Source: Limisalsivibrio acetivorans
Lineage (GTDB): Bacteria > Chrysiogenota > Deferribacteres > Deferribacterales > Geovibrionaceae
Assembly: GCF_000421105.1 (NCBI RefSeq)
Contig: NZ_ATWF01000002.1
Location: forward strand, 1-64,000
Reading direction: 5' to 3'
Length of the DNA stretch: 64,000 nucleotides
Shown here: positions 51,907 to 63,437 of the stretch, one piece after another
Layout of the letters: each line of letters begins with the position of its first letter
Numbering within the stretch: position 1 is the stretch's first letter
Position numbers and translations under genes: made by a program
The notes under the pieces: generated by a model
Told to the model about the DNA's origin: nothing
Database searches by the model: none
The model's input: the letters and a program-made list of their open reading frames with translations, nothing else

Positions 51907-52974
51907 TTGATGGATAATGAAAACAAAATCCTAATCGTTGATGATGATCCTCTTAACATAGACATACTCGAGGAGATTTTCTCCGATATATACCGTGTGA
52001 AGAGTGCCTCTTCCGGCGAGGAAGCCCTTGAGCTTCTTGATTCATACCGACCCGATCTTATCCTTATGGATATTATGATGCCCGGCATAGGAGGGTATGA
52101 AACGTGCAGAAGGATACGCAGAAGCGTGAAACACAGGCTGGTTAAGATCATTCTCGTTTCGGGCAAGGGGATGACCGAAGAGCGCCTTGAGGGCTATGAG
52201 GCTGGCGCCGATGACTATGTAACCAAACCTTTCAGCGATGACGAGCTTCTGGCCAAGGCAAACGTGTTTCTGAGACTGAAAAGGACCGAAGAGGTGGACA
52301 GGATCAAAATGGACATCCTGAACCTCTTCTCCCATGAAACCAGAACACCGCTCAGCTCCATCGTAAGCCCAGCTGAACTCCTGCTTGAGGATACAAACCT
52401 TACCGAGGATCAGCGCTATCTGCTCAAAATGATCGTATCAAGCTCCGAGAGGCTGGTGGATTTCATAAACAAGACCACCCTTCTCTGCAACCTGAAAGGC
52501 GGCCAACGGCTTAACACATACATAGCGAGACCCTCCGATGTTGTTCTTGCGGCTAAGGAAAGACTTGCCGAGCAGTTCAGGACCAAGAACGTGCGCCTCT
52601 CTGTCTCCGGCGACGAACTCGAGCCCGCAACGGCAGACTGGGAGATGATAACCCACGCAATAACTTATATCATGGACAACGCCGTAAAGTACTCCCCCCA
52701 CGGAGCTGAGGTTAAGGCCGATATCCAAAAGGAATCGCCAGATATGGTTCTATACAGAGTAACGGACAACGGCCCCGGCATAGATGAGGAAAACTATCGT
52801 GATCTCTTCGAGGAGTTCCACGTAGATGAGATTATGCACCACCATAAGGGGCTTGGGATAAGTCTCTCCATAGCTCGCTATGTGGCCAGAGCCCACGGCG
52901 GTGATATATCCCTCTATAACTCCGAAACGGGTGGAGCTGTCTGTGAATTTAGAATAAAAGAGCAACAAGGGTAA
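51907..52974 (+). CDS. Receiver-histidine kinase protein (REC-HisKA-HATPase)
   Basis: A 355-residue soluble protein: receiver domain (1-122; acidic pair Asp11/12, phosphoacceptor Asp54, Lys in VTKPFSD), HisKA dimerisation domain (His142 in LFSHETRTPL) and HATPase domain (N box TYIMDNAVKYS, G1 VTDNGPGID, G2 HHKGLGISLSIARY). This inverted order, receiver first, suggests a kinase switched by phosphorylation from another kinase, as in phosphorelays. It has no membrane segment or PAS domain. It is followed after 3 nt by the degenerate Cache kinase gene, with which it is surely co-transcribed. Confidence 0.92.
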   Translation: MMDNENKILIVDDDPLNIDILEEIFSDIYRVKSASSGEEALELLDSYRPDLILMDIMMPGIGGYETCRRIRRSVKHRLVKIILVSGKGMTEERLEGYEAGADDYVTKPFSDDELLAKANVFLRLKRTEEVDRIKMDILNLFSHETRTPLSSIVSPAELLLEDTNLTEDQRYLLKMIVSSSERLVDFINKTTLLCNLKGGQRLNTYIARPSDVVLAAKERLAEQFRTKNVRLSVSGDELEPATADWEMITHAITYIMDNAVKYSPHGAEVKADIQKESPDMVLYRVTDNGPGIDEENYRDLFEEFHVDEIMHHHKGLGISLSIARYVARAHGGDISLYNSETGGAVCEFRIKEQQG

Positions 52975-52977
52975 GGA

Positions 52978-55107
52978 ATGGATAGAGAAGGCGAAGACAG
53001 AAAGATTGCCGCACTTAGCTTCCTGAGCCTGATCTCTGTGGTCGCTATCTTCGCAGTAACAATCAGCTTTATATTCATTTCATCAAATATCCGTGAGATA
53101 AAACGTAAGTCCCAACAGCTGCAAAACCAAATCTATGATGTCCGGCGAGATGTATTGAGCGGCAGGCTTGCCTCGGAAACCAGAAGGATAACTTACGCCT
53201 CCGAAGAGATGAAGAGCAGAACCGAATCCGAGCTCCTTGAAAGGGTCCACAACGCTTACTCTGTAATCTATAGAACATACAGAGACATGGCGGGTGAATA
53301 TCCCGATGCGAAGATTATCGAAACAGCCGCATCGCTACTTGATAAGATGCGCTTCAATAACGGCAACGGATATTACTTCTTGATAGACATGAAGGGTTTA
53401 TCCCACCTATTCCCCACAAACCGGGAAATGGAGGGAACCAACATCATAGGACTGCAGGACAGCAACGGAGTCTTCATAGTCCAAAAGATGCTTGAGATAG
53501 CAAAAAACCGTCGTGAGGATTTCCTGGAGTGGTCTTGGTACAAGCCGGACAACTATCTACTGATGTATGAGAAAAAAGGCTATATAAAATATGTTGAAGC
53601 TCTGGATCTCTTTGTAGGAACCGGTTTGTACAAGGAAGATATTATAAATGAGTCCAAGAACGTAATCCTTAATGAAATGCAGAGACTTAGCAGACTGAAT
53701 CCGAAGGAAGAGCGGCTGAGCATTTATGAAATAACAGAGACCGCTGATGGGGACAGGTTCATCGAAACACTTCTGGAAAAAGGTGATCGTTACACGGAAA
53801 AACCCACACCCGGCTACACCGCTAATATACTGGAAAGGATAAAAGAGGAGAATCAGGTCTGCATATCAAACAGCCTATACCGTGAACAGGAGGGCTACGC
53901 TGTGCCCGCACTCTCCTGCTTTCGTCTTATTGAAGACTGGAACTGGATTATTTCAAGAACCATGTCCACCCGTGATATAAGCGATCTGGTAATGAGAGAG
54001 GAGCATCTTCTAAGGGAGGGGCTGAAACGAAACATATACATACTCGCAGGGGCAGTTCTCAGCGCTTTGCTCATAGGCGTTGTAATATCTTTTGTTATCG
54101 CAAGTAATATAAGCAGTATCTTTCGTCGCTATGGCAAGATAAACAAAAACCAGACCGACAAGCTGGCTGCCGCCAATCAAAGGCTTCATGAAAAGATTAA
54201 GGAGCGTAAAGAGGTGGAGGAGCAGCTCGTGCGTGCAAGGGCGGAGCTTGAGAGAAAGGTGCAGGACAGAACTCTGGAGCTTAAGCGGAAAAACGAGTTC
54301 CTTATTGCTGAGAATATTGAGAGGAAACAGGCTGAAAAGGCACTGATTAAAGCAAAAGAGGAGGCGGAAACAGCCAACTTTGCAAAAAGCGAATTCCTCA
54401 CAAACATGAGCCAGGAGCTTCGCTCCCCGATGCACGAGATACTAAGCTTCTCCCGTTTCGGTATAGACAAGCACAGCAAGGTCCCCCCAGAAAAGGTGCA
54501 GAGATATTTCAGCCAGATTAAGGACAGTGGAGAAAAGCTGCTTGGGTTCCTGAATTCACTGCTCGAGCTCTCAAAGCTTGAGGCGGGAAAGATGGAGTAC
54601 CGGATTAACGTTACCGATGCAAGAAGCGCCGCCGAACAGTCTGTTAAAGAGCTTGAGCTTAACCTTAGCGAGAAAGGTCTCGTTGTGACCATAACCCCCG
54701 AGGGTATTCAACAGCCGGTTTATGCGGATGTAGGAGCAATACTGCAGGTTTTCCGCCACCTCCTTTCCTCACTCATAAGGGTAGCAGAGAATAATTCGGA
54801 GATATCCATAGCCTTCGCACCCTCCAGGCTCCAGAGAAAGGGGGAGGATGTTAAGGCCCTCGCCGCAGAGATAAGGCTGACGGAAAACATCTTAACCGAT
54901 AAAGAGGTTTCCGAGCTTTTCAGCGGATATGCAGACAAGCCCAAGCCGGACGGCTCAAACACCTTCGGGCTCGGTCTCTCCATATGCCGCGAGATCATCC
55001 TTGTCCACGACGGCGATGTATTTGCCGCTAGAGAGGGCGCAGAGACTGTAATCCGCTTCATATTGAAATCACCCGAAGAGGTTAAAGGTGACAGCCTCAA
55101 TGAATGA
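52978..55107 (+). CDS. Cache-domain sensor with degenerate histidine kinase module (pseudokinase)
   Basis: A 709-residue membrane protein. A first membrane helix (12-35) and a second (about 352-375) bracket a periplasmic region of about 315 residues with two Cache-like units: [21 protein letters not shown] is typical of single Cache domains. A coiled coil follows. The kinase part has the HisKA outline [10 protein letters not shown], but the phosphorylated histidine is replaced by Gln479. In the HATPase-like part the N-box asparagine is lost (SLIRVAENN instead of NAIKFSPDN) and the DXGXG G1 motif is missing, although the late [10 protein letters not shown] motif is kept. It should bind signals but not phosphorylate, and likely works with the intact paralogue encoded next. 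Confidence 0.88.
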
Positions 55108-57199
55108 AAAGAAGATTTCAAAGATATCCCTTTATACCTCCCTCGGCCTCACAGCCGCCCTCACCCTTATAGTTGCGGCCGTTTTCTTCATAGGCTACTA
55201 CACAGACTACAAAAGGGACCGGGAAGCACTGCAGGATGACTACGAAAGAACGCTTAAGGATGTCCTGAGAACCAGCGTAACCGAAGAGATCGAGCGTATA
55301 AGCTTCTACCGGAACATTATTTCCGAAAACCTCCGAATCGAGATCAAAACAAGAACCGATGAAGCATGGAACATAATGAACAGCATCTATAACGATTATA
55401 AAGACGAGCTGAGCGAAAGGGAGATAAAACAGAAGATCTACGACACCATAAAGCCTATCCAGTTCAACTCCGGCAGGGGTTACTATTTTATAATAAACAG
55501 CAACCTGGATATCGTCCTCCATGGCACCAATACCCCCCTTGAAGGGCTTAACGTTAACGATACCCCTCTGGAGCTTGCAAAAAGCTTCATCACACAGATG
55601 AAATCCCTGGCGGACTCCCACCAAAATGGATACATAGAGTACCGCTGGACTAAGCCCTACGACAGGGAAAATCTATACATGAAATACAGCTATATCAGGA
55701 ATTTCGAGCCATTCGGCTGGATTATCGGCACTGGGGACTATCTCGATGAGGCGGAAAAAAGCGTAAAGAAAGATATCCTGAACAGCTATAAATATACCAG
55801 TAACTTATCACTCCATAAGGAGTTCGTTTCCGTAAACGAGATATTCAACATGCACGGCGGAAGAGACTTCGCGAGGGTTCTCGTATTCACAGGAAATGAG
55901 GAGCTTCAGAACATGCTCATTTCCGATAACTACACCGATGAGGAAGGAAACTTATACCTGCGTGATATAATGGACGATCTTCGTGAAAATGGAGAGGCCT
56001 TCGTAAAGCATCTTGTGAGAATCCCCGGAGAGGATGAACCAAGAGTACGTATGGTCTATTTCCTCCTGTACCCGGAATGGGACTGGATGATAGGCAAAGG
56101 CTACTATCTTGAGGATATCAAGGATGAGATAGCCGGTAAAAAGGCGGAGCTCCTTAACAGGGTCATAATGGACAGCATATACACCCTCGCCGCCCTTCTC
56201 GCCGTTGCGGGGCTTGCAGTATTCATATCATTCAAAGTATCGGGGAGAATAGCATCGGGGGCAGAAAAATACCGCAGGGAAAACAAGCAGAAGAAGGATA
56301 AGCTCCATGAAAGCAACCGCCTGCTCTGGGAAGAGATACGCCAGAGAAAGCTCACAGAAAACACCTTAAGGAAAGCCGGCGAAGAGCTTGAAAAAGCCGT
56401 AAGGGAACGAACCGCAGATCTGGACGATGTAAACCGTCACCTGCAGGAGGAAAACCGGAAGAGGAAGGATATTCACACAGAGCTTATACGTGCTAAGGAG
56501 GATGCGGAGAATGCCAACAAGGCTAAATCCGAGTTTCTGGCAAATATGTCCCACGAGATACGCACACCTCTGCACGGTATCCTGAGCTTCTCCAATTTCG
56601 GATTGAAGAAACTGGGCACAGCCTCAGAAGAAAAGATCGAGCACTACTTCATACAGGTGCACGAAAGCGCAAACAGGCTCATGACCTTCATAAACGACCT
56701 GCTGGATCTATCCCGGCTGGAGGCAGGGAGTATGGACTACCGAATACAGGAAGAGGATATCCTGCCTGTTCTGCAGTCCATCGCCTCGGAGTTTCAGGAA
56801 TCACTAAACGAAAAAGGGATTATTCTTGAGATGCCTAAAGAAGGCGCCACAGCCTCCATTGACCGTTTACGCATAGGTCAGGTCTTCAGCAATGTTTTAT
56901 CGAATGCCATAAAATTCTCACCGGATAACAGAAGCATAAAGGTAGAACTGATTAAACACAGAGGGTTTGCAGAGGTTAGAGTAAGAGACGAAGGGCACGG
57001 GGTTCCCGATGAGGATAAAGAGAGGATCTTCCATAAGTTCATCCAGAGCGCCAAAACCAAAACAGGGGCAGGCGGAACCGGACTAGGCCTTGCTATATCC
57101 AGGGAGATAATATCCTATCACGGCGGCAAAATATGGACCGAAGACCCGCCATCGGGGGATGGTAGCGTCTTTATTTTCACCGTCCCCGCAGACTCCTGA
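55100..57199 (+). CDS. Cache-domain sensor histidine kinase (intact paralogue)
   Basis: A 699-residue kinase with the same plan as its upstream neighbour: membrane helix near residues 13-32, periplasmic double Cache region ([21 protein letters not shown]), second helix near 355-375, a long coiled coil, HisKA with an intact phosphoacceptor His485 ([10 protein letters not shown]) and a complete HATPase domain (N box [14 protein letters not shown]1 [11 protein letters not shown]2 [12 protein letters not shown]). It overlaps the stop of the pseudokinase gene. The ATG at 55100 has AAAGGTGA eight bases upstream; an in-frame GTG at 55088 is also possible. It has no receiver domain; output is probably through the receiver proteins in this operon. 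Confidence 0.92.
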
Positions 57200-57227
57200 C
57201 AGGCACGCTCCTTGCTTATTAATCCGC

Positions 57228-57986
57228 ATGATGAACAATGCGGAACTTATTTCCTGTTTAAGCAAACTTTACGGCACAAGGGTAAGCTCTCCTTCTCCGG
57301 AACTGCTGAACAGCGATTCTGTTAAAAAGCAGTTCAGAAGGATGGCGATGAAGCTGCACCCTGATATGAACAGAGGGGCGGACGAGGAAACCTCACGCAG
57401 GCTCGGTGATTCCTTTATCAGCGTGAACGAGGCCTATAAAAACCTTCTAGGCTACTTGGAATCATCTGGTGCATTCACAGCACCGTCCTCAGTATTTCGG
57501 CAGAGAAGTACTGAGAAACCTCAGTACTCATCCCCCGGAAACAGCAGCGGTTCACAGCAGAGAGCCCACACCAGCCGCAGAAAGCGGGACTTCATCCCCT
57601 CCAGAAAGTTGAGCTTTGAGGAGTATCTCTACTACACCGGAATAATCACCTGGCACGACTTTATCGCCGCTAAAATATGGATAAGAGCGGGGAGGAGCAG
57701 GCTGGGAGAGATAGCTATAAAATGGGGATGGATAACACGCAGAGACCTTGAAGCTGTTCTACCAGAGAAACGATTCGGCGAGCAGGTCGGGGAGCTCATG
57801 GTGCGCAGCGGGCTGATAACAAGGTTCAGGCTCAATGTTCTTCTTCGACTTCAGAAGCAGATGGAACCGGATGTGGAAGAATACTTCCTCAGCAGAGGCA
57901 TACTCAGCGAAAGCAGGATGATGCAGCATCTGACCAATATGAAATACTACAACTCCTGCTTTGAGGAAAAGGCTAGCTGCGGTTGA
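57228..57986 (+). CDS. J-domain protein with MshEN-like C-terminal repeats
   Basis: A 252-residue protein. The N-terminal 80 residues form a J domain with the His-Pro-Asp motif at 44-46 (KLHPDMNRG), which stimulates Hsp70/DnaK ATPase. There is no zinc-finger or Gly/Phe region. After a serine-rich linker (85-125), residues 128-240 contain about four tandem 25-30-residue helical repeats centred on Gly-Ile/Leu-Ile: TGIIT, WGWIT, SGLIT and RGILS. The second (from Arg158-Leu-Gly) and third (from Gln186-Val-Gly to Gln209) fit the 24-residue cyclic-di-GMP-binding motif of MshEN domains closely in spacing (Gly10, Leu17, Leu21, and Gln24 in the third). A cyclic-di-GMP-responsive co-chaperone is a plausible but untested reading. 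The start has no strong ribosome binding site. Confidence 0.8.
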   Translation: MMNNAELISCLSKLYGTRVSSPSPELLNSDSVKKQFRRMAMKLHPDMNRGADEETSRRLGDSFISVNEAYKNLLGYLESSGAFTAPSSVFRQRSTEKPQYSSPGNSSGSQQRAHTSRRKRDFIPSRKLSFEEYLYYTGIITWHDFIAAKIWIRAGRSRLGEIAIKWGWITRRDLEAVLPEKRFGEQVGELMVRSGLITRFRLNVLLRLQKQMEPDVEEYFLSRGILSESRMMQHLTNMKYYNSCFEEKASCG

Positions 57987-58398
57987 TAAGTATAAGCCCG
58001 ATAATGCAGAGTATGATGCCGAGCCCCGTGGTCATGCTTATGGTCTCCTTAAAGAAGGCATACCCCACCGGTATCAGAAAAAGCCCCACAAGAACACTGC
58101 ATACAACTCCGCCGATGTTGATGTTCCAACCGGCTCTGTAGGCAAGAAGAAAGCCCAGCTCAAGGCCAACAATGGACATGCCAAGGCCTATGCTGGCAAG
58201 GTTCAGCCGGCGGAACGTTTCTGTGAATCCTTCCGCCGCAGGGAAGAAGGGGATAAGAAGAAGTGATGTTGCGGCGGCTGTGAGATATGTCATCACAAGG
58301 GAAAAAACGGGGTTAACGTTCACAGGTATCGACTTCTGGAACACATGGTATAAAACATTCGAGAAAACGGCCATCATCATCGGAGCCCAGTAAAGCAT
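57973..58398 (-). CDS. Small EamA/DMT-type membrane protein (single repeat)
   Basis: A 141-residue inner-membrane protein with five or so hydrophobic helices matching one EamA repeat, the size of half a DMT transporter. Motifs include the N-terminal MMAVFSNVLYHVFQKS and the GYAFFKETISMTTGLGIILCIIGL end, typical of the last helices of the repeat. Single-repeat members work as dimers, as in the small multidrug resistance family. Substrate unknown. It overlaps the end of the J-domain gene by 14 bases on the opposite strand and is otherwise alone. Confidence 0.8.
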   Translation of the reverse strand: MLYWAPMMMAVFSNVLYHVFQKSIPVNVNPVFSLVMTYLTAAATSLLLIPFFPAAEGFTETFRRLNLASIGLGMSIVGLELGFLLAYRAGWNINIGGVVCSVLVGLFLIPVGYAFFKETISMTTGLGIILCIIGLILINRS

Positions 58399-58619: not shown

Positions 58620-59990
58620 ATGAAACGAAACGCACCCAGCATAGTCAAGAAAAGCCGGGTTTATATGCTCCTGATGGGCGTGATTGTGGGCATTATATTC
58701 CCATTCTTCACCGTGATAGTGCTCAACTTGAACCCAAAGGACGTTCTGAACACAAAGTTCTTCGTCTCCTGTATTATTGCAGGCATTCTGGTGGGACTGC
58801 TATCTTCGGTAATAACCAGCATAACGATCCTCAACAAGCTCACAACCTTCCACGAGGCGCTCGTAGATGTGGTCAAAAACATCAAAGCACACAAGCAGGG
58901 GATGCGGAAGGTGGAGGAGTGCGACTGTTTTGTTCTGCGGGACACCTCAGACATCATCGGCGACATTCAGGAGAAGTACAACGAGCTGGTGGAAACCATA
59001 CGCAACTCCTTCCTCCAGCACCAGCACATGGACCAGTTTTTCACCGTGCTCAACCATTCCATAGAGTTCAGAAACCTTAATAAAAACGTGGTGAAATTCA
59101 TAACAGAGACAGTACAGCCCGTTCTCGCAGCAGAGATATACTGCTTTAATGAGCATAACAAATTCCTCAAATGCGGCGCAGTATTCGCCCATAACGCTCC
59201 CACGGAGCAGTTTAAGGATTTCCTCCAGGATGTTCTGGAAAGCAGGGAGGTTATGGAGCTTGAGGAGAAGAATCTCTTCTTTATTGAGGGACTTTTCTCC
59301 GTCCGCCCCAACTCCGTTGCCCTCTTCCCCATAGCAAACGATACAAACAAGGTGGGCGTGCTTGCGGTTTATCTCTCCAGAAAGCTCATGGACGATGAGC
59401 GGGGGATGATCGGCAAGCTTCTTAATCAGTATACCCTCGCCTACCAGAGTTCGCTCAGCTTCAACAGGGTTCAGGATATGGCCTCCATCGACGAGCTGAC
59501 AAGAATAAACAACCGACGCAACGGCATAGCGCTGACAGAAGACGTGCTCGAAAAAGCCTACGAAGATCGTGAACCCGTCAGCCTGCTAATTATGGATATT
59601 GATCACTTTAAGCAAGTAAACGACACCTACGGGCACCAGGCGGGTGATATGATACTCCGCGTTCTCTCGGAAAAAATCAAAAATATGATAAGGGGCACCG
59701 ATATCTTTCTCAGATACGGCGGTGAAGAGTTTCTTATCGTTATGCCTGGTACACATATTGATGATTCCTATAAGAGGAGTGAAATAATACGAAAAGCTGT
59801 TGAGGAATCAGAATTCCTGTGGAATAATAATTCTATCCAAGTTACCATCTCTTTGGGTCTTTCGTGTACAGAGATCGGAACCCAGAATAACTATGATCTT
59901 GATACACTTCTGACACAGGCCGATGAAGCATTGTATCTCGCTAAAGAACAAGGAAGAAATCGTTCTGTGCTGTATATGAAGTGCGAATAA
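58620..59990 (+). CDS. Membrane-bound diguanylate cyclase (GGDEF, with I-site)
   Basis: A 456-residue protein. Two membrane helices at the N terminus (about 14-36 and 48-70) flank a very short periplasmic loop. A HAMP-like/coiled region follows, then a GAF-like sensing region (about 135-275) and a GGDEF domain (285-452). The active site reads GGEEF (367-371), and the inhibitory site is intact: Arg358-Gly-Thr-Asp361 followed by exactly five residues before GGEEF. It should make cyclic-di-GMP from GTP with product inhibition. The domain begins with the usual DELTRINNRR. It starts a plus-strand signalling operon with receiver/kinase, CheY-like, and PilB-like genes. Confidence 0.94.
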   Translation: MKRNAPSIVKKSRVYMLLMGVIVGIIFPFFTVIVLNLNPKDVLNTKFFVSCIIAGILVGLLSSVITSITILNKLTTFHEALVDVVKNIKAHKQGMRKVEECDCFVLRDTSDIIGDIQEKYNELVETIRNSFLQHQHMDQFFTVLNHSIEFRNLNKNVVKFITETVQPVLAAEIYCFNEHNKFLKCGAVFAHNAPTEQFKDFLQDVLESREVMELEEKNLFFIEGLFSVRPNSVALFPIANDTNKVGVLAVYLSRKLMDDERGMIGKLLNQYTLAYQSSLSFNRVQDMASIDELTRINNRRNGIALTEDVLEKAYEDREPVSLLIMDIDHFKQVNDTYGHQAGDMILRVLSEKIKNMIRGTDIFLRYGGEEFLIVMPGTHIDDSYKRSEIIRKAVEESEFLWNNNSIQVTISLGLSCTEIGTQNNYDLDTLLTQADEALYLAKEQGRNRSVLYMKCE

Positions 59991-61721: not shown

Positions 61722-63437
61722 ATGCTGAAAAAGTACAACGACAAATTCCTCGATCTTCTCGTAGAAGAGCGGGTACTTACGGAAGACGACAAGGGTAACC
61801 TCGTCAAGAAGTTCGACAATAACGCATCCGAGATCTTCGAGTTCCTTATCGAAGGGGGTGCGGCGTCCAGAGAGCTCATGGCAAAGCTCTGGGGGGACTC
61901 CCTAGACAAAGCCTATATCGAACTTGGACGCACAATGATGCAGGAGGAACTTCTGGACTATCTTCCGTCTGACTTCGCACGGAAGAACTATCTTCTGCCG
62001 TTGTACAAGTTTGGAGATGTAATAACCGTAGCCACCTCCGATCCTGAAAACCAGATGGCTATGCAGAAGCTTGAAGAGATATACGGGTGCAAGATAAGCA
62101 CCGTCTTCGCCCTACCCGAGGATCTGGAAGATACACTTGAGATCACCTTTCAGGACACCTCCAAGGTTGATGAGTTTGTCAACAAGATCACGGTGGACTC
62201 CCTCTTCAAGGGAACCAGCAAAATCACAGCCGGACAGCTCCAGAGGATGGCGGGGGATCAGGCTATTATCGAGCTTGTTCGGGCCGTTATGCTCATCGGA
62301 ATCAAAGAAGGGGCGAGTGATATACACATTGAGCCCCAGGAGAAGTTCACCCAGATAAGATACCGAATCGACGGAGTTCTGCAAACACTGCTTAAGCTGG
62401 ATCTTGCTGTTCTACCAGGTATTTTGTCCAGACTAAAGGTTATGTCAAACCTGGATATAACCGAAAGAAGGCTCCCTCTGGACGGAAGAGCTGTACTAAA
62501 GCTTAAAAACCGCTCCATCGACTTCCGTATATCCACAACACCAAGCATATACGGAGAGAAGGCGGTTCTACGTATCCTTGGTCAAAAGGATTCGCGCTCC
62601 GTTCCGTCCCTCACAGACCTCAACTTCTCAAAGTTTATTTACGAAAGACTCAGCAAGATAATGGAAAACCCGAACGGGGTGTTCTTTGTAACCGGACCCA
62701 CAGGCTCGGGTAAGACCACAACGCTCTACTCCCTTTTGAAATATCTGAACAGCCCGAATGTCAATATCATGACCATTGAAGACCCTGTGGAGTACCGCCT
62801 CCCCGGGCTTACACAGGTGCAGGTGAATCAGGATGTGGGGCTCGGCTTCACAAACGCTCTTCGTTCATTCCTCCGTCAGGATCCTGATATCATCCTAATC
62901 GGTGAGATACGGGATATCGAAACAGCCCGAATCTCCGCCCAGGCAGCACTTACTGGTCACCTCGTTCTTGCCACAATGCACACAAACGACTCCATGCAGG
63001 CGATAACAAGGCTCCTTGAGATCGGTGTGCAGCCCTTCCTTGTAGCTCCCTCTATGATAGGAGTAATGTCACAGCGTCTTGTTAGACAGATCTGCGACCA
63101 CTGCAAGGAGCCCTACGAGCTAACACCCGAGGAGATTAACGAGCATTTCAACGACTGGGACGGAGTAACCACCGTAACATTCTATAGAGGAGCCGGATGC
63201 CCGAGATGCCATGGCTCCGGCTACAGGGGACGACTTGCAATCCACGAACTTTTGATAATTAACACAGAGCTGAGAAAGGTTATCGGCGAAGGTGCATCAA
63301 TCCTTGAGATCAAGGACTTCACCAAGAAGATGAACTTTAGAAATCTGCGCTACGATGGCTTCAAGAAGATTCTCCGAGGGCTTACAACCCTTGAGGAGCT
63401 CAATAGGGTAACCATAGCCGAAGACGCACTGGAGTAA
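61722..63437 (+). CDS. PilB/GspE-type secretion or pilus assembly ATPase
   Basis: A 571-residue hexameric ATPase of the type II secretion/type IV pilus extension family. It has the N-terminal GspE-type domain (LPSDFARKNYLLPLYKFGD), Walker A GPTGSGKTTT near residue 325, the Asp box (IEDPVEYRLPG), Walker B ILIGEIRD, the His box (ATMHTND) and a zinc-binding CXXC pair (CDHC and CPRC). The first 60 residues look like MshEN repeats in which the Arg-Leu-Gly and Gly residues were lost (FLDLLVEERVLTED), so cyclic-di-GMP binding is doubtful. Its operon holds signalling genes and not pilus genes, which is unusual; the pseudopilin trio at 37-42 kb is a possible partner. Confidence 0.9.
   Translation: MLKKYNDKFLDLLVEERVLTEDDKGNLVKKFDNNASEIFEFLIEGGAASRELMAKLWGDSLDKAYIELGRTMMQEELLDYLPSDFARKNYLLPLYKFGDVITVATSDPENQMAMQKLEEIYGCKISTVFALPEDLEDTLEITFQDTSKVDEFVNKITVDSLFKGTSKITAGQLQRMAGDQAIIELVRAVMLIGIKEGASDIHIEPQEKFTQIRYRIDGVLQTLLKLDLAVLPGILSRLKVMSNLDITERRLPLDGRAVLKLKNRSIDFRISTTPSIYGEKAVLRILGQKDSRSVPSLTDLNFSKFIYERLSKIMENPNGVFFVTGPTGSGKTTTLYSLLKYLNSPNVNIMTIEDPVEYRLPGLTQVQVNQDVGLGFTNALRSFLRQDPDIILIGEIRDIETARISAQAALTGHLVLATMHTNDSMQAITRLLEIGVQPFLVAPSMIGVMSQRLVRQICDHCKEPYELTPEEINEHFNDWDGVTTVTFYRGAGCPRCHGSGYRGRLAIHELLIINTELRKVIGEGASILEIKDFTKKMNFRNLRYDGFKKILRGLTTLEELNRVTIAEDALE

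Follow-up and report, generated by a model that had tools for sequence, protein, structure and literature searches.

J-domain proteins with tandem MshEN-type repeats: an apparently undescribed family and its diverged member in Limisalsivibrio acetivorans

MshEN domains occur fused to many outputs, including REC, HD-GYP, CheA, CheX, cyclase, and Ser/Thr kinase domains (PMC5013675). In MshE, each half-site contacts cyclic di-GMP (c-di-GMP) through Arg1, Leu2, Gly3, Leu17, Leu21, and Gln24 of its motif (PMC5013675), and Lys or Leu can stand in place of Arg at position 1 (PMC11731258). Homologues that do not bind the ligand are also described. One is XpsE (PMC5013675); another is the GSPII-A domain of PilF, in which the last motif positions are His and Arg and measurable binding required the restoration of position 1 and of both Gln residues (PMC12002112). 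In Myxococcus xanthus, four PilZ proteins carry a DnaK or DnaJ domain (PMC10313047, PMC8316039), and the PilZ-DnaK chaperones CsdK1 and CsdK2 act in heat stress (PMC10313047). No fusion of MshEN to a J domain is named in the main text of PMC5013675, and none is described in the literature searched, supplements and most subscription journals lying outside that search. Such a protein, P0001, is encoded in a 64,000-nucleotide stretch of Limisalsivibrio acetivorans DNA (contig NZ_ATWF01000002.1, positions 1 to 64,000), here called the window. It is one member of a widespread J-MshEN fusion family that apparently has not been described before.

With Vibrio cholerae MshE (PDB 5HTL) and the GSPII-B and GSPII-C domains of Thermus thermophilus PilF, P0001 shares a tandem 24-residue hairpin motif with a 5-residue spacer within each pair, a four-helix-bundle fold, Gly3, hydrophobic residues at positions 17 and 21, and Gln24 in alternate repeats. 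Unlike in those proteins, the array is joined to a J domain and not to an ATPase, two N-subdomain units follow each other directly and no C-subdomain was seen, and two of the four motifs are degenerate in the window copy, much as contact positions have been lost in the non-binding GSPII-A (PMC12002112). As in the type-III (class C) proteins AtcJ and HscB, a J domain with His-Pro-Asp is present, and neither a zinc finger nor a C-terminal DnaJ body was matched. The remainder of P0001, however, is an MshEN array, in place of a short tail at the C terminus or a domain that binds an iron-sulfur scaffold. CsdK1, CsdK2, and the other PilZ-DnaK and PilZ-DnaJ proteins are similar in that they combine a c-di-GMP receptor-type domain with a component of the Hsp70 machine; however, the receptor is PilZ there and MshEN here, and the CsdK partner is DnaK itself. 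The fusion also resembles the published ones (PMC5013675), in which MshEN is the regulatory module of many outputs.

The open reading frame of P0001 is uninterrupted (Table 1). A preliminary description of the locus, made from the sequence alone, had proposed a J domain with His-Pro-Asp at the N terminus and about four tandem repeats at the C terminus. Both proposals are borne out, the former by a Pfam DnaJ match above its cut-off and the latter by four helical hairpins of 24 residues each, separated by spacers of 5, 4, and 5 residues. In the structure model, the J part is helical (helices 4-15, 29-43, and 53-79; block predicted local distance difference test score, pLDDT, 85-96) and its best structure matches are J domains. 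The linker that follows varies in length and sequence among relatives. P0001 is classed as a type-III (class C) J-domain co-chaperone and is predicted to stimulate DnaK.

The MshEN identity of the repeats is indicated by several comparisons. The NCBIfam model NF053729 ("c-di-GMP_motif, MshE-related"; 53 positions, cut-off 38 bits) matches P0001 with 43.5 bits (E 2e-11), gives only eight matches at E<=10 over the 2.97-Mb genome, four of them in P0001 and its paralogue, and matches 22 of the 22 first-found members of the family at E<=1. The motif score of the C-terminal domain was reached by none of 5000 shuffles. Among solved structures, only PilF chains match this domain in sequence at E<0.01 (1.5e-6 to 2.7e-5), with repeats R2-R3 lined up with motifs I and II of PilF GSPII-B, which binds c-di-GMP (isolated domain; E 6e-6 to 2.7e-5). 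When the C-terminal domain of the family is searched as a profile, the best matches in the PDB are GSPII/MshEN ATPases (PilF 1.8e-10, PilB/MshE about 1e-4). AlphaFold2 models the repeat domain as eight helices with a mean pLDDT of 92.7. The 12 best PDB matches of this model in Foldseek are all MshE or PilF GSPII, nearly all with c-di-GMP bound, at a root-mean-square deviation of 1.4-2.1 over 54-57 residues and a probability of 0.84-1.00; ranks 1-9 are PilF GSPII-B and MshE with bound c-di-GMP (0.98-1.00). The Foldseek E-values are weak (0.4-2.6), which is attributed to the domain being short and helical.

That the repeats might be ordinary helical repeats, resembling MshEN by chance in an otherwise plain J protein, could be argued from the Pfam MshEN model PF05157, which matches neither P0001 nor its relatives. 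The profile search suggested in the preliminary description fails with PF05157 and succeeds with NF053729. However, PF05157 matches residues 64-140 of a secretion ATPase in the window, which suggests that it models the MshEN C-subdomain and not the c-di-GMP-binding N-subdomain. It would miss the repeats of P0001 for this reason, and its failure would have no bearing on the N-subdomain; the J-MshEN family seems to have no C-subdomain. As MshEN is the common result of NF053729, the sequence and profile searches, and the fold comparison, chance resemblance is ruled out for practical purposes and is regarded as very improbable. The stated comparison with unrelated helical repeats was likewise passed, with NF053729, the family profile, and the fold comparison. 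By profile, modelled fold, and family, the repeats are best assigned to the MshEN type with its four-helix-bundle N-subdomain fold, so that the description as a J-domain co-chaperone fused to MshEN-like repeats was right. The four hairpins would form two N-subdomains of the c-di-GMP receptor kind in tandem.

A contig search for close relatives gave nothing with P0001 alone and succeeded with a three-row alignment. The same genome holds a paralogue (C1:2161483-2162208; L002:1498-2229; 31% identity), and another relative lies in a further genome of the same order; with P0001, these are the only full-length members found in the phylum set of 51 genomes. The survey of J-domain/MshEN fusions proposed earlier extends the family to at least five other phyla, with members in Thermodesulfobacteriota (including Desulfarculales and Desulfuromonadales), Nitrospirota, Spirochaetota, Myxococcota, and Gemmatimonadota. 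At an E-value limit of 1e-30 (1e-20 for the spirochaete set), a member was present in 26/247, 20/198, 11/149, and 4/189 genomes of the sampled phyla, rates which are slightly high because the samples include seed genomes. Presumably, relatives in Geobacter-like genomes are annotated just as "J domain-containing protein". In the family tree, considered with regard to a recent duplication, P0001 and its paralogue both have long branches, and neither falls within a well-supported set. Six spirochaete members (L033-L038) consist of the J domain and two repeats only, R1 and an R4-like one, which make one MshEN-type unit. A four-repeat array without a J domain was also observed in L071:985-1887 (-) and L073, N-terminal to a CheX-like domain (judged by eye).

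Contact conservation was counted over the 72 four-repeat members, at 24 positions (six per repeat). Gly3 is conserved in 86, 100, 91, and 97% of them in R1, R2, R3, and R4, and Gln24 in 98% in R1 and 100% in R3. The window copy keeps 15 of the 24 positions, the lowest value of the 72 (median 20), distributed as 2/6 in R1, 5/6 in R2, 5/6 in R3, and 3/6 in R4. The residues, their numbers, and the deviations which the preliminary description listed for R2 and R3 are all correct, including the Lys with which R2 ends at position 24; the degeneracy of R1 and R4 at ligand-contact positions was little stressed there. In R1, positions 1, 3, 21, and 24 are occupied by Ser, Glu, Lys149, and Ile152; the window copy is the sole exception among the 72 at Gln24 of R1 and the only one with Lys at position 21. 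In R4, position 3 is Glu. Each canonical pair is therefore damaged, and no pair is left in which both motifs keep position 1, Gly3, hydrophobic residues at 17 and 21, and Gln24. Conversely, the paralogue keeps 22 of the 24 contact positions, tied highest of the 72, and its first motif is near-perfect (RLGEYLYYSGIVSYRDLSGAVVWQ). Because contact residues have been lost in R1 and partly in R4, the window copy probably binds c-di-GMP weakly or not at all; sensing by this copy is doubtful, and the paralogue appears to be the better binding candidate.

The reading that accounts for most of these data, and to which an even chance is given, is that P0001 is a diverged, weakly binding or non-binding paralogue within a J-MshEN co-chaperone family that typically responds to c-di-GMP. 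The four-hairpin array would be the client- or partner-binding module of the co-chaperone. In a typical member, of which the paralogue is an example, c-di-GMP would bind at a repeat pair and alter the way in which the array offers the J domain or a partner to DnaK, so that high c-di-GMP might bring chaperone help to particular proteins. The window copy, with its J domain intact and contact residues lost in R1 and partly in R4, would be a co-chaperone that is insensitive to the ligand or tuned differently.

For the family at large, c-di-GMP sensing is plausible, and several observations weigh against it. Position 24 of R2 is Arg or Lys in 77% of members (56/72), and that of R4 is mostly Leu or Gln, with Gln in about 19%; Gln24 is present in both R1 and R2 in 2/72 members and in both R3 and R4 in 14/72. 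The family thus strongly keeps ligand-type positions, yet by its sequences normally has one Gln per canonical pair, and binding becomes uncertain since GSPII-A needed both Gln residues restored. Nor was a recurrent c-di-GMP partner seen beside relatives, where 4/58 neighbors were PilZ and 1/58 GGDEF. Alternatively, the whole family may have co-opted the repeats as a helical module that docks a client or partner without any ligand, and c-di-GMP would have no role. In favor of this, a canonical pair in which both motifs are fully canonical is not usually retained by members, and some spirochaete members have only two repeats. Non-binding MshEN homologues exist in XpsE (PMC5013675) and GSPII-A (PMC12002112), and certain nearly invariant features resemble a specific interaction surface, although they are not MshEN ligand positions: LYY (window residues 134-136) and Trp23 (151) in R1, and a His-Asn near the C terminus. 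A docking module without ligand is nevertheless judged unlikely, given the conservation of Gly3 in all four repeats and of Gln24 in R1 and R3 across phyla, at 86-100%. These are guanine- and ribose/phosphate-contact positions, at which drift would be expected if the fold alone mattered. PilF GSPII-B single Gln mutants are titled c-di-GMP-bound in the PDB, and the absence of one Gln may thus be tolerated.

The opposite proposal is that the window protein itself binds c-di-GMP and so switches DnaK recruitment, as the preliminary description had inferred. A composite R2-R3 site is conceivable because these two repeats keep 5/6 contact positions each and align in sequence to motifs I-II of the c-di-GMP-binding GSPII-B, and the apparent tolerance for a missing Gln in the GSPII-B mutants would help it, as would the choice of Arg, Lys, or Leu as first residue (PMC11731258). 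However, the spacer between R2 and R3 has 4 and not 5 residues, R2 lacks Gln24, and R3 has Gln in place of Arg, Lys, or Leu at position 1. The canonical partners R1 and R4 are degenerate, the contact score is the lowest among the 72 relatives, and the nearby cyclase shares no operon with the J gene. This proposal is considered rather improbable, and the window copy is the member in which a c-di-GMP switch of DnaK recruitment is predicted to be least likely.

Beyond P0001, it may tentatively be proposed, with somewhat less than an even chance, that widespread J-domain co-chaperones bind c-di-GMP through tandem MshEN N-subdomains and that the second messenger directly steers DnaK to selected clients. 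In this genome, one paralogue able to bind and one unable to do so could then work as a pair, the former signal-dependent and the latter constitutive. Should the family bind c-di-GMP, a major second messenger of bacteria would be linked directly to the Hsp70 machine, a link previously hinted at, in the literature found, only by the PilZ-DnaK and PilZ-DnaJ fusions of Myxococcus. The J domain would likewise be an added output class for MshEN receptors, and the fusion may connect c-di-GMP signaling with protein folding. The paralogue, which retains nearly all contact residues, and the window copy, which does not, offer a natural experiment on which residues and repeats matter.

Table 1: Coordinates in the window of the J-MshEN gene, its parts, and two neighboring genes.
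Feature	Position	Strand	Basis or remark
J-MshEN fusion protein P0001, 252 aa	57228..57986	+	Translation; full-length relatives in several phyla
J domain, residues 1-79	57228..57464	+	Pfam DnaJ 31.1 bits, cut-off 27.8
His-Pro-Asp motif, residues 44-46	57357..57365	+	Invariant in 72/72 four-repeat relatives
Low-confidence linker, residues about 80-120	57465..57587	+	pLDDT <50 over residues 87-119
Repeat R1, residues 129-152, SFEEYLYYTGIITWHDFIAAKIWI	57612..57683	+	Degenerate MshEN motif
Repeat R2, residues 158-181, RLGEIAIKWGWITRRDLEAVLPEK	57699..57770	+	Near-canonical; fits relaxed motif of PMC5013675
Repeat R3, residues 186-209, QVGELMVRSGLITRFRLNVLLRLQ	57783..57854	+	Near-canonical with Gln24; NF053729 best stretch 187-235
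Repeat R4, residues 215-238, DVEEYFLSRGILSESRMMQHLTNM	57870..57941	+	Degenerate at positions 1, 3, 24
Place of family C-terminal His-Asn, here Tyr241-Asn242	57948..57953	+	His 67/72, Asn 70/72
dCache-HisKA-HATPase sensor kinase	55088..57199	+	Pfam; ends 28 bp upstream of J gene
Diguanylate cyclase (GGDEF)	58620..59990	+	Pfam; separate transcription unit

Upstream of the J gene and on the same strand (51907-57199) lie a receiver-histidine kinase and then two similar dCache histidine kinases. As the last of these ends so close to the J gene, it is possible that all are co-transcribed in one operon. Read-through into the J gene is uncertain because a 7-pair terminator-like hairpin (57223-57244) spans its start codon; the hairpin could be due to chance, serve attenuation, or block the initiation of translation. 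The end of the J gene is overlapped by a convergent EamA gene (57973-58398, -). A diguanylate cyclase does follow as the next gene on the plus strand, as previously stated, but an operon of the J gene and this cyclase was rejected since the EamA gene and a further 221 bp lie between them. The genome holds 31 GGDEF places; c-di-GMP is therefore presumably made, and one nearby cyclase says little. Further along the window, the type II/IV secretion ATPase (61722-63437) has the Pfam MshEN (C-subdomain) match and no NF053729 match in the genome search and is therefore probably not a c-di-GMP binder. One of the four PilZ neighbors counted above (L018:4833-5204, -) stands, in another genome, two genes left of a J-MshEN gene and on the opposite strand, and a gene 86% identical to it (L020:4849-5262, -) adjoins a close relative of that J-MshEN member.
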